From: Anaerolineae bacterium
Lineage (GTDB): Bacteria; Chloroflexota; Anaerolineae; Aggregatilineales; Phototrophicaceae
NCBI GenBank assembly: GCA_020848855.1
Contig: JADLHH010000317.1
Coordinates: 1 to 5,175, forward strand
Direction: 5' to 3'
DNA length: 5,175 nt
The stretch's first letter is position 1; every line of letters starts with the position of its first letter. Of this stretch, positions 2,482 to 5,175 are shown piece after piece. Both the position numbers and the translations under genes were made by a program. The notes beneath the pieces are model-generated. The model searched no databases, had not been told where the DNA came from, and saw nothing but the letters and a program-made list of their open reading frames with translations.

Positions 2482-2862
2482 ATGCTTCCCGGCGGCAAAC
2501 ACGTTCTCCGGCTGTTCGTGCTTGGGCTGCTGGTATTGGCTGCCTGCTCGTCTTCGAGCGGGGGTGACCCGGCGAAGACCGTCGAGCAGTACCTGACGGC
2601 GAAGGTCGCCAGCGACGAATCGGCGCTGCGTGGGCTGTTGTGCAGCGAGATGGAAGCCAATCTGCCGATTGAAGCGTCGTCGTTCGCCGGGCTGGACGCC
2701 AGGCTCGACGGGATGACGTGCCAGCGCCGGGGCGACAGCGATGTCGTCACCTGCACCGGCAAGATCGTCGCCACTTATGGCACGGAGGAGACCGACTTCC
2801 CGCTCTCGTCCTACCGCGTCGTGCAGGAAGACGGCGAGTGGAAATGGTGTGGGGAAAACTGA
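2482..2862 (+). CDS. Small lipoprotein of unknown function
   Basis: 126 aa from ATG 2482, 4 nt after the previous stop. The N-terminus MLPGGKHVLR is followed by a hydrophobic core and the lipobox LAAC, so C22 should be lipidated and the protein anchored outside the membrane. A Ser/Gly linker (SSSSGG) follows. The mature domain starts with a helix-like KTVEQYLTAK and ends with YRVVQEDGEWKWCGEN, a pattern seen in small NTF2-like lipoproteins (DUF4878 type); this is a resemblance, not an identification. Four other cysteines (C54, C80, C91, C123) could form two disulfides. Earlier in-frame starts (TTG 2455, ATG 2464) would overlap the upstream gene and put nine residues before an already complete signal peptide, so 2482 is preferred; a weak GTGGG at 2469-2473 supports it. 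The stop overlaps the next start as TGATG. Its place in the operon suggests an accessory role in surface acylation, by inference only. Confidence 0.75.
   Translation: MLPGGKHVLRLFVLGLLVLAACSSSSGGDPAKTVEQYLTAKVASDESALRGLLCSEMEANLPIEASSFAGLDARLDGMTCQRRGDSDVVTCTGKIVATYGTEETDFPLSSYRVVQEDGEWKWCGEN
2851..2855 (+). promoter_or_regulatory. Shine-Dalgarno of the membrane microprotein gene
   Basis: GGGGA lies inside the last codons of the lipoprotein gene, 6 nt before ATG 2862. Together with the TGATG stop/start overlap it supports translation of the very short downstream gene. Confidence 0.5.
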
Positions 2863-2978
2863 TGCGCCGCCTGCTCACGCGCGAAAACGGGTACGCGCTG
2901 GCGTTGTGCCTGATCCTGCTGCTGGTGATCGTCGTCACGAGCGACACCGCGCCGCAGTGGATTTACCAGGGCTTTTGA
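2862..2978 (+). CDS. DltX-like membrane microprotein with C-terminal acyl-shuttle motif (WIYQGF)
   Basis: 38 aa. Visible parts: a basic N-terminus (MRRLLTRENG, R2, R3, R7), one hydrophobic segment at about 11-27 (ALALCLILLLVIVV), and a short tail DTAPQWIYQGF. By the positive-inside rule the tail lies outside the membrane. In the Dlt system, DltX is a similar single-pass microprotein whose C-terminal hexapeptide, FIYNEF-like, carries the acyl group on its tyrosine between the MBOAT DltB and the transferase DltD; many AlgI-type MBOATs carry a related ending (FIYFQF-like) fused to their own C-terminus. WIYQGF has the aromatic residue, Ile, Tyr (Y35, fourth from the end) and final Phe in the same places. 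The gene overlaps the lipoprotein stop (TGATG), has GGGGA 6 nt upstream, and ends 15 nt before the MBOAT. The function is inferred from motif, topology and context; overall similarity to DltX is not expected to be high. The symbol is left blank because no Dlt operon is shown. Confidence 0.8.
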   Translation: MRRLLTRENGYALALCLILLLVIVVTSDTAPQWIYQGF

Positions 2979-2993: not shown

Positions 2994-4472
2994 GTGACGT
3001 TTGACCTCGCCACGATTCTGATCTTCGTCGTCGGTGCGCTGGTGTACGCCGCCGTGCTGCCGAAGCGCTGGCGCGGCTGGGCGCTGCTGGTCGGCAGTGT
3101 CATCCTGATCTATCGCTTGCAGCCGCCGCTGCCGATCCGCTACAGCGACTTCATCCTGCCGACGGCGACCCTCGTGCTGACGGTCGCCGGCTGGTGGATG
3201 ACGCGCGACCAGTCTGTTGATACTGCCCGCGACGACCGCGTCACCTTCTGCGTGATCGTCGCGCTGGTGGTCGGCATGTCGCTGATGCGCTTCATCGACG
3301 CCGACTACCGCCTGACCGCCTCGCGCCCGCCCGAACCGCTGCTGGTGATCGTGTCGCTGGCGCTGGTGGCGGCGATTGTTCTGGGCGCGTCGCTGCTGGT
3401 GGCGCGCATCACCACGCCGGACAACCAGCCGCGTGTGCAGCGCCGGACGCTCTGGCTCATGATGCTGCTGATCCTGGTGCTGTTCGTCGCCCTCAAGAGC
3501 GCGCCGCTGGCGACCGAAGTCGCCCGGCTGTGGCGCGGCGGCACGGGGCAGGATATCGCGCTGGCGAGCTTCATCGACCTCAACTGGCTGGGCTTCTCCT
3601 ACGTCGCCTTCCGCCTGATCCACACCCTGCGCGACCGCCAGACCGGGCTGCTGCCCGCGCTTTCCCTGCGCGAATACGTCACCTATGTGATCTTCGCGCC
3701 TGCCTACACCGCCGGACCGATTGACCGCGCCGAGCGCTTCGCCGAAGATTTCCGCGCGCTGCCGGAGAAAGTCGGGCTGGATGGTGCGCGCTTCACCGAC
3801 GGCTTCACCCGCATCAGCATCGGCATCTTCAAGAAATTCGTGATCGCCGACACGCTGGCGATGGGCGCGGCGCTCACTCCGGCGAACGCCGCGCAGACCG
3901 ATTCCGCGCTCGGCATGTGGCTGCTGCTCTACGGCTATGCTCTGCGCCTGTACTTCGACTTCAGCGGCTACAGCGATGTTGCCATCGGCATCGGCATCCT
4001 GTTCGGCATCCGGCTGCCGGAGAACTTCGACCGCCCGTACCTGCGCCAGAATATCACCGTTTTCTGGCAGAGCTGGCACATGACGCTGAGCAGCTGGGCG
4101 CGCTTCTACATCTTCTCGCCGCTGTCGCGCTGGCTGCTTTCGCGCAAGCCCAAGCCGTCGCCGACGCTGATTGTGCTGGCGACCCAGACGGCGACGATGG
4201 TCACCATCGGCATGTGGCACGGCGTCTCGCTCAATTTCCTGATCTGGGGCATCTGGCACGGCGTCGGGCTGTTCGTGCATAAGAAGTGGACGGATCGCAC
4301 CCGCAAGTGGTATCGCGGGCTGAACGACAAGCCGGCGCAGAAGCGGGCGTGGACGCTGGTCGGCTGGTTCGTGACGTTCCATTACGTCGTGCTGGGCTGG
4401 GTGTGGTTCGCGCTGCCGGAAGTCGGGCAGTCGCTCCACGTCCTCGGCGGCTTGTTTGGGATTGGGCTGTGA
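2994..4472 (+). CDS. MBOAT-family O-acyltransferase (AlgI/DltB type)
   Basis: 492-aa polytopic membrane protein with about 11-12 hydrophobic segments. It should take an acyl group from a cytoplasmic thioester donor and deliver it across the membrane for esterification of a surface polymer. Family signatures in order: LGFSYVAFRLIH (199-210), FAPAYTAGPIDRAERF (234-249), YFDFSGYSDVAIGIG (320-334), PENFDRPYL (342-350), FWQSWHMTLSSWARFYIF (357-374, H362) and MWHGVSLNFLIWGIWHG (407-423) with the presumed catalytic H409. The segment before about residue 190 is longer and less conserved than in DltB. After the last helix (about 455-473) the protein ends in LHVLGGLFGIGL, without the extra C-terminal helices or tyrosine-containing tail of many AlgI proteins, so it ends like DltB. 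A separate microprotein encoded just upstream appears to supply that tail. The start is GTG with GGAG 8 nt upstream; the stop overlaps the next ATG (TGATG). Donor (acetyl-CoA or carrier-bound acyl) and target are not determinable here. Confidence 0.93.
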   Translation: MTFDLATILIFVVGALVYAAVLPKRWRGWALLVGSVILIYRLQPPLPIRYSDFILPTATLVLTVAGWWMTRDQSVDTARDDRVTFCVIVALVVGMSLMRFIDADYRLTASRPPEPLLVIVSLALVAAIVLGASLLVARITTPDNQPRVQRRTLWLMMLLILVLFVALKSAPLATEVARLWRGGTGQDIALASFIDLNWLGFSYVAFRLIHTLRDRQTGLLPALSLREYVTYVIFAPAYTAGPIDRAERFAEDFRALPEKVGLDGARFTDGFTRISIGIFKKFVIADTLAMGAALTPANAAQTDSALGMWLLLYGYALRLYFDFSGYSDVAIGIGILFGIRLPENFDRPYLRQNITVFWQSWHMTLSSWARFYIFSPLSRWLLSRKPKPSPTLIVLATQTATMVTIGMWHGVSLNFLIWGIWHGVGLFVHKKWTDRTRKWYRGLNDKPAQKRAWTLVGWFVTFHYVVLGWVWFALPEVGQSLHVLGGLFGIGL

Positions 4473-5175
4473 TGGGTTGGCGCTTTCTGCTTCGTGTTGT
4501 CATCAAGGCGGCGGTGCTGTTCGTGGTCGCCAACCTTGTCTTTGCGCTGCTTGATCCGGTCGAGGCGCTTGGTCGCGTCTCGCTGTACAACGTCGTGCTG
4601 CCGGGACGCGAGCGCCTGCCGTATGGCGAAAACCCGTCCGAATCCTACAACCTGAGCCTGTACAGCGTCCCGGCGATGTTCTCGTCGCACGTCGTCTCGC
4701 GCCCGAAGCCCGCCGACGAATACCGCGTCCTGCTGATCGGCGACTCATCGACGTGGGGCTGGCTGCTCGAAAACCGCGACGCCTACGCCGCCAATATCAA
4801 CGCCGCCAACCGGACGGCTGCCGACGGGCGGCGCATCGTCGCCTACAACCTCGGCTACCCGATCATGTCGCTGACCAAAGACCTGATGCTGCTCAATTAC
4901 GCCATGCACTACCAGCCGGATCAGATCGTCTGGCTGGTGACGCTGGCGTCGTTCCCGCGCGACAAGCAGTTGTTCCCGCCGATTGTGCAGAACAACGCCG
5001 CCCGCGTCCACGACCTGATCGCCCGCTACGAGTTGCAGCTTGACCCCGACGACAGCCGTCTCGTCACGCCGGATTTCTTCGGCAGGACGATCATCGGGCA
5101 GCGGCGGGCGCTGGCGGACTGGCTGCGCCTGCAAACCTACGGCTTGTCGTGGGCGGCGACCGGCGTCGATCAGGC
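4472..5175 (+). CDS. Membrane-anchored SGNH-fold acyltransferase, DltD/AlgJ-like (C-terminus beyond window)
   Basis: Open from ATG 4472 to the window end (234 codons plus 2 nt), overlapping the MBOAT stop by one base as TGATG. Residues about 6-27 (LLRVVIKAAVLFVVANLVFALL) form an N-terminal membrane anchor, leaving the rest outside. An extended segment (about 30-83) precedes the SGNH core. Block I is VLLIGDSSTWGW with nucleophile S92; a block II-like region is AYNLGYPIMSLTKDL (G128 as likely oxyanion glycine). Where block III would be expected the sequence reads WLVTLASFPRD, with no GxND. The catalytic Asp-His pair lies beyond the window if present. Anchored SGNH proteins next to an MBOAT (DltD, AlgJ, PatB-like) receive the acyl group and transfer it to the polymer, and that is the inferred role. 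No good Shine-Dalgarno is visible, so translation probably depends on coupling to the MBOAT gene. Confidence 0.82.
   Translation, partial: MGWRFLLRVVIKAAVLFVVANLVFALLDPVEALGRVSLYNVVLPGRERLPYGENPSESYNLSLYSVPAMFSSHVVSRPKPADEYRVLLIGDSSTWGWLLENRDAYAANINAANRTAADGRRIVAYNLGYPIMSLTKDLMLLNYAMHYQPDQIVWLVTLASFPRDKQLFPPIVQNNAARVHDLIARYELQLDPDDSRLVTPDFFGRTIIGQRRALADWLRLQTYGLSWAATGVDQ

Follow-up and report, generated by a model that had tools for sequence, protein, structure and literature searches.

A conserved stand-alone microprotein beside a DltB-like MBOAT as a candidate acyl-tyrosine shuttle in Chloroflexota

The window analysed here is a stretch of 5,175 nucleotides from an Anaerolineae bacterium (contig JADLHH010000317.1), and all of the features described below lie on its forward strand. 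It begins with a gene for an M24 peptidase (169-1287), followed by a gene for a secreted protein with SH3 and SGNH/GDSL domains (1296-2477; PF08239 28.4 bits, cut-off 27; PF13472 29.8 bits, cut-off 32.9), which is the second SGNH protein of the locus and possibly serves the same function as the microprotein operon. In locus L153, a gene of the SGNH cluster sits between the microprotein and the MBOAT. A small lipoprotein gene comes next (2503-2862; start uncertain, alternative ORF start at 2455), and its stop codon overlaps the start codon of a 38-residue ORF in a TGATG (2860-2864) that was read directly. This ORF (2862-2978; MRRLLTRENGYALALCLILLLVIVVTSDTAPQWIYQGF) encodes the candidate acyl-shuttle microprotein, with a basic N-terminus, one membrane helix predicted at low confidence (residues 7-26; block pLDDT 45-65) and the C-terminal hexapeptide WIYQGF (2958-2975), in which the codon of Tyr35 lies at 2964-2966 and that of Phe38 at 2973-2975. 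Fifteen nucleotides (2979-2993) separate its stop codon from the GTG start (2994) of an MBOAT O-acyltransferase (2994-4472; codons of His362 and His409 at 4077-4079 and 4218-4220, respectively). The last gene (4472-5175), in the position of DltD, encodes a membrane-anchored SGNH protein (Ser92 codon, 4745-4747). As the window stops inside this gene, any acyl carrier protein (ACP) or ligase gene beyond it is out of view. The preliminary description of this DNA had drawn attention to the 38-residue ORF, its basic start, single membrane segment, WIYQGF end, TGATG coupling and 15-nt distance to the MBOAT, and all of these were re-read as claimed.

The microprotein ORF is confirmed as real and conserved. 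In 102 loci, some of them overlapping, only 90 of 16,325 ORFs of 25-80 amino acids have ends of the form [FW][ILVM]Y..F; 87 of these are WIYQGF-like and the other three are FIYFQF, which we have taken for the ends of fused MBOATs. The 87 distinct copies of the microprotein end in WIYQGF (80), FIYQGF (3), WIYQNF (3) or WMYQGF (1). Among the 86 that are full length, the Tyr, Gln and Phe of the hexapeptide are present in every copy, Ile in 85, and Trp and Gly in 83 each; Pro-8 is likewise constant in all 86, while the codons of these four invariant residues vary. The copies were retrieved with a profile that includes the tail, which favours a result of conservation, yet none of the 90 profile hits was dropped. 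It had been proposed that homologous loci without the ORF, or without its terminal Tyr and Phe, would speak against a shuttle; the ORF was found in all 70 of the genomes with this MBOAT, and Tyr and Phe in 86 of 86 copies. A chance ORF was also considered, and is ruled out by the conservation of the tail and the rarity of such ends among small ORFs.

A profile of 16 copies (15 from upstream of related MBOATs and that of the window) matched at least 5368 proteins at E<=10 among 7992 scored candidates. Every one of the best 120 members listed scores E<1e-19 and lacks a Pfam domain, and those that are named at all are called 'hypothetical protein'. The small ORF that precedes dltABCD is itself often overlooked in annotation, according to the available part of one report (PMC5541007). 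Against solved structures the profile gave a single match at chance level (E 5.8), and in 50 genomes of other lineages it gave one weak match (E 4e-4), which lay within a 484-residue frame and stopped short of the tail. In a sample of the phylum, the microprotein was found in 18 of 201 genomes, all 18 of which also belong to the class sample described below.

The linkage of the microprotein with the MBOAT was examined at two levels. A 34-row MBOAT alignment (A1) was searched against bacterial and archaeal genomes, the best 80 of 585 confirmed loci were retained, and the first 21 of these (L001-L021), all assigned to Chloroflexota by title or lineage, are referred to here as the clade. A small ORF ending in WIYQGF lies directly upstream of the MBOAT in 15 of the 21. 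In the other six, L008 starts such an ORF and is then masked, L018 begins at the edge of its contig, and no microprotein lies upstream of the MBOAT in L003, L004, L005 or L016. The genomes of 19 of the 21 loci, including those of L003, L004 and L016, contain the microprotein somewhere; a genome search did not find it for L005 (G005) or L018. Leptolinea tardivitalis (L015) is among those with both microprotein and MBOAT. In L005 the lipoprotein abuts the MBOAT (about 5600-6000) and the microprotein is absent from both locus and genome, reflecting either loss or an incomplete assembly.

Among 298 sampled genomes of one class (that of G007, presumably Anaerolineae), for which the searches for MBOAT, DltA and ligase scored the best few candidates per genome, the microprotein occurs in 71 genomes and the clade MBOAT in 70, and all 70 are among the 71. 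The single occurrence among the 228 genomes that lack the MBOAT, in G044, has a stop codon inside the match. Across the 71 genomes, the gap between microprotein and MBOAT is below 150 nt in 45, below 500 nt in nine, below 3 kb in nine and larger in two; in the remaining six, no MBOAT shares both contig and strand with the microprotein. G254 has the microprotein immediately after a ligase gene on one contig and the MBOAT on another. Of the 59 class loci that extend at least 5 kb downstream, 30 have a relative of the lipoprotein near the MBOAT.

The MBOAT of the window matches PF03062 (77.5 bits), and among named models and solved structures its nearest relative is DltB. However, it scores 230.5 bits on the DltB equivalog TIGR04091, below the cut-off of 375, whereas two true DltB proteins of the same class score 446 and 425 bits. 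Its closest relatives that carry an organism name are from Chloroflexota or Phototrophicaceae, which bears out the earlier suggestion that the DNA is of Chloroflexota origin. All 34 rows of A1, the window included, have both His362 and His409, and their spacing of 47 residues equals that of His289 and His336 of DltB, residues named in the accessible text of PMC11035591.

The claim that the tail stands alone, rather than being fused to the MBOAT, holds throughout the clade: none of 121 MBOATs (that of the window and its 120 best homologues) has a fused C-terminal shuttle motif. The same count rules out a fused-motif MBOAT that happens to adjoin an unrelated small ORF. In other lineages the pattern finds a fused motif in 46 of 59 MBOATs; one of these (L025) is a false match, the pattern overlooked variant fused tails in L046, L049 and L076, and L027 is cut. 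A quick tree of 88 MBOATs (midpoint root, no bootstrap) places 29 of the 30 clade rows in a single group (SH-aLRT 99), outside a branch (SH-aLRT 97) to which all 47 fused rows and four unfused ones belong. L062 and L251 did not enter this tree, L026, L027 and L059 were left out, and the row for L008 is a different MBOAT of that contig because the clade copy is masked.

The microprotein and MBOAT were also folded as one read-through chain (mean pLDDT 89.6), using an alignment in which the final Phe was misplaced in many short rows, which may have hurt prediction of the tail; an alignment without paired rows (A5) misplaced small proteins and was not used. The MBOAT part of the model is good and DltB occupies ranks 1-3 in Foldseek, but residues 23-45, which include the tail, have pLDDT below 50, and the tail is unplaced relative to the MBOAT lumen. 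An unplaced tail and a putative acyl-tyrosine would also suit a subunit of the MBOAT that has a structural or regulatory role and whose Tyr35 carries nothing. We consider such a subunit very improbable, as the invariant Tyr/Phe tail is common to DltX and PatA-type tails in which the Tyr is acylated (PMC12148441, as far as its available text goes), and the end of the clade MBOAT offers no other shuttle motif.

In the partner in the DltD position, the serine of the GDS motif (S92) is kept in all 69 aligned SGNH rows, and a His in 67 of 67. The corresponding protein of a relative (L010) has an SGNH fold, and its match to DltD by fold is weak (best at rank 11, E 0.004). By sequence, the SGNH profile matched none of the solved chains.

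How close, then, is this system to Dlt? The WIYQGF tail differs by one letter from the FIYQGF of true DltX, as found in the dlt operons of three genomes of the same class (KFIYQGF, SFIYQGF and PFIYQGF in G111, G157 and G279, respectively), and in a profile comparison the last 18 residues of the microprotein align with the DltX of G413 (probability 61%). With the MBOAT nearest to DltB, this likeness would fit a divergent true Dlt system that has D-alanine as its cargo and the microprotein as its DltX, with DltA and DltC encoded elsewhere in the genome. However, neither the window microprotein (P0001) nor its relative in L009 matches PF12459 (DltX), whereas four true DltX proteins used as positive controls (L249-L252) score 31-38 bits against a cut-off of 25. 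Furthermore, DltA is over its cut-off in only two of the 298 class genomes (a third, in G279, is just below) and DltC in three. The one genome of the 70 with the MBOAT that has both over cut-off, G111, carries a separate true dlt operon (L249), whose own DltX, DltB and DltA all exceed their cut-offs, about 32 kb from a FAAL-type operon (L217) on the same contig (C50). True Dlt with DltX is therefore ruled out as the main reading by the PF12459 and DltB misses and the rarity of DltA and DltC, and, given also the FAAL-like ligase of the operons described below, we regard even a divergent form of it as improbable. Because the microprotein fails PF12459 and the MBOAT is below the DltB cut-off, we do not file the microprotein as DltX, although it probably works in the same manner. 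In 18 genomes that carry other loci no DltX was over the PF12459 cut-off, and among relatives of a Paenibacillus (40 genomes of its order and 91 of its phylum) there was one weak match and one over the cut-off.

Weak DltC hits beside the MBOAT led us to inspect the neighbourhoods of the sister loci. In many of these the gene order is lipoprotein (not always present), microprotein, MBOAT, SGNH (in one to three copies), ACP and a FAAL-like ligase. L017 and L010 are examples in which microprotein, MBOAT, ACP and ligase are all present. The ACP is of about 82 amino acids with a GLIDSF serine; the D, S and F of this motif are kept in at least 95% of 49 ACPs, and the dltC model scores below its cut-off. 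The ligase is of about 560 amino acids (PF00501), and aligns end to end with 14 PDB sequences at E<=1e-60, the best being 3kxw and 3pbk. Four of the 14 are named fatty-acid AMP ligases, and the others, 3pbk apart, we take to be FAAL domains. 3pbk is the FAAL of E. coli, EcFAAL, in the part of PMC8460268 available. When six ligases were compared with NCBIfam models, PRK09192 (fatty acyl-AMP ligase) came first for three and PRK07768 (long-chain-fatty-acid--CoA ligase) for the other three, and none of the six passed a cut-off (best PRK09192 score 366 bits, cut-off 600). From these sequence comparisons the enzyme is probably a fatty acyl-AMP ligase, and we refer to it as FAAL-like.

Of the 79 loci that extend 5 kb or more downstream, 59, 45 and 43 have SGNH, ACP and ligase genes, respectively, within 8.5 kb on either side of the MBOAT. 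The corresponding counts for the 59 such loci of the class sample are 40, 32 and 31, falling to 31, 22 and 22 of 49 once ten loci retrieved for their ACP hits are set aside; ACP and ligase are thus missing from the vicinity of the MBOAT in about half of the class loci. Across genomes, the ligase clade (E<=1e-150) is present in 65 of the 70 with the MBOAT versus six of the 228 others (Fisher p 4e-52, although related genomes are not independent). Five of the 70 have no ligase at this threshold, and the 65 include genomes in which the ligase is unlinked. ACP and ligase directly follow the SGNH gene in L171, L173 and L174, which come from genomes of the order of G003. In L002, the closest relative of the window in the tree, neither was found within about 6 kb downstream.

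The patchy linkage is one of several points that would suit an acyl-CoA-fed O-acetylation system like PatA/AlgI, in which the tail has been split from the MBOAT and the ACP and ligase are chance neighbours or makers of acyl-CoA. Many of the MBOAT homologues are named AlgI in their source annotations, and a CoA-ligase model came first in half of the ligases scanned. We nevertheless consider such a system unlikely, since the ligase co-occurs with the MBOAT even where the two are unlinked, all 43 loci with a ligase near the MBOAT also have an ACP near it, and the MBOATs with fused tails form another branch of the tree. The ACP and the probable fatty acyl-AMP ligase seem instead to take the places of DltC and DltA in the sister operons, and from their presence there and the co-occurrence of the ligase we therefore arrive at a Dlt-shaped machine in which DltC and DltA have been replaced. 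The label 'non-Dlt', given to the locus at the outset, is thus only partly apt: it holds for the activating enzyme, which is FAAL-like, but in layout many of the sister operons are Dlt-like, carrier protein and AMP ligase included.

We consider the microprotein likely to be the acyl-tyrosine shuttle of this surface-acylation machine, the transfer of an acyl group being the presumed part of that role. The hexapeptide mechanism itself was reportedly defined by Schultz and co-workers in 2023, whose work PMC12148441 cites. In DltX and PatA the Tyr of the hexapeptide carries the acyl group (PMC12148441, in the portion available). By analogy, the fatty acyl-AMP ligase would make an acyl-AMP and load the acyl chain onto the dedicated ACP, as expected of its family (PMC8460268, in part). 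On the cytoplasmic side the MBOAT would accept the chain from the arm of the carrier and, using His409 and His362 as in DltB and PatA, transfer it to Tyr35 at the outer face. The acylated tail would then swing to Ser92, and the membrane-anchored SGNH protein may transfer the chain from there onto an outer polymer or glycan. The wider proposal, that FAAL-activated fatty acids pass through an ACP, a DltB-like MBOAT, a stand-alone Tyr microprotein and an SGNH protein to a surface polymer, as a fatty-acyl counterpart of Dlt with one branch in Chloroflexota, is one that we hold to be somewhat probable.

Several loci of other lineages have arrangements that invite comparison. In a member of the Polyangiaceae (Myxococcota; L065, 3759-7157), an ACP, a FAAL-like ligase, an unfused MBOAT and a 74-residue ORF ending in FIYGNF lie in a row. 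This is the same architecture outside Chloroflexota and suggests a wider or repeated origin; in the tree L065 joins the DltB rows, which may be long-branch attraction. A Clostridiales locus (L023, 4548-8964) has an SGNH-like gene, an unfused MBOAT, a 43-residue ORF ending in GFQYVGF, an ACP and an AMP ligase that is not close to the FAAL clade (42 bits; contig cut). L067 (1236-3657, Chisholmbacteria) has a weak SGNH-like gene, an unfused MBOAT and a 36-residue ORF ending in EFIYVDF, which is possibly another stand-alone shuttle. In Paenibacillus assamensis (L055, 5629-8264), an unfused MBOAT and a 386-residue gene precede a 62-residue ORF that ends in TEFIYMNF and has no match to PF12459. Finally, in a member of the Micrarchaeota (L041, 707-2203), the gene immediately after an unfused MBOAT resembles a holo-ACP synthase (TIGR00556 72 bits), a hint that an archaeon, too, may use carrier-fed acylation.

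MBOAT/SGNH pathways other than Dlt are said to lack both a DltX-like microprotein and a carrier protein (PMC12148441, 2025, in the part available), and the operon described here argues against this. If our reading is true, two stated rules of bacterial MBOAT-SGNH acylation are broken. It would also give carrier-bound fatty acids a possible way out of the cell and a very large family of nameless microproteins a function, and the operon opens the surface chemistry of little-studied bacteria to testing. A literature search returned no paper with both FAAL and MBOAT as whole words, and DltX was absent from the matches listed for Chloroflexota/Chloroflexi, Anaerolineae and microprotein.

Among known systems, Dlt is alike in that a small single-helix protein with a [FW]IYxGF tail and an invariant Tyr stands by a DltB-like MBOAT and an SGNH protein, and, in the sister operons, in having a carrier-protein pathway. 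It is unlike in that the microprotein here has no PF12459 match, the MBOAT falls below the DltB cut-off and a FAAL-like ligase stands in the sister operons instead of DltA. PatA/PatB, AlgI and related MBOAT-SGNH O-acetylation systems share the logic of MBOAT, SGNH and acyl-Tyr hexapeptide; however, in the PatA/AlgI type the MBOAT itself bears the motif as a fused tail and acyl-CoA is the donor (PMC12148441, in its available text), whereas here a separate gene encodes the motif, and an ACP and an AMP ligase are present in the sister operons. Finally, the pairs of FAAL and stand-alone ACP known from lipopeptide and polyketide pathways are alike in ligase family and in the logic of ACP loading, but typical bacterial FAALs adjoin PKS/NRPS genes (PMC8460268, as far as its accessible text describes), whereas in the sister operons the pair is found with an MBOAT-SGNH export pair.
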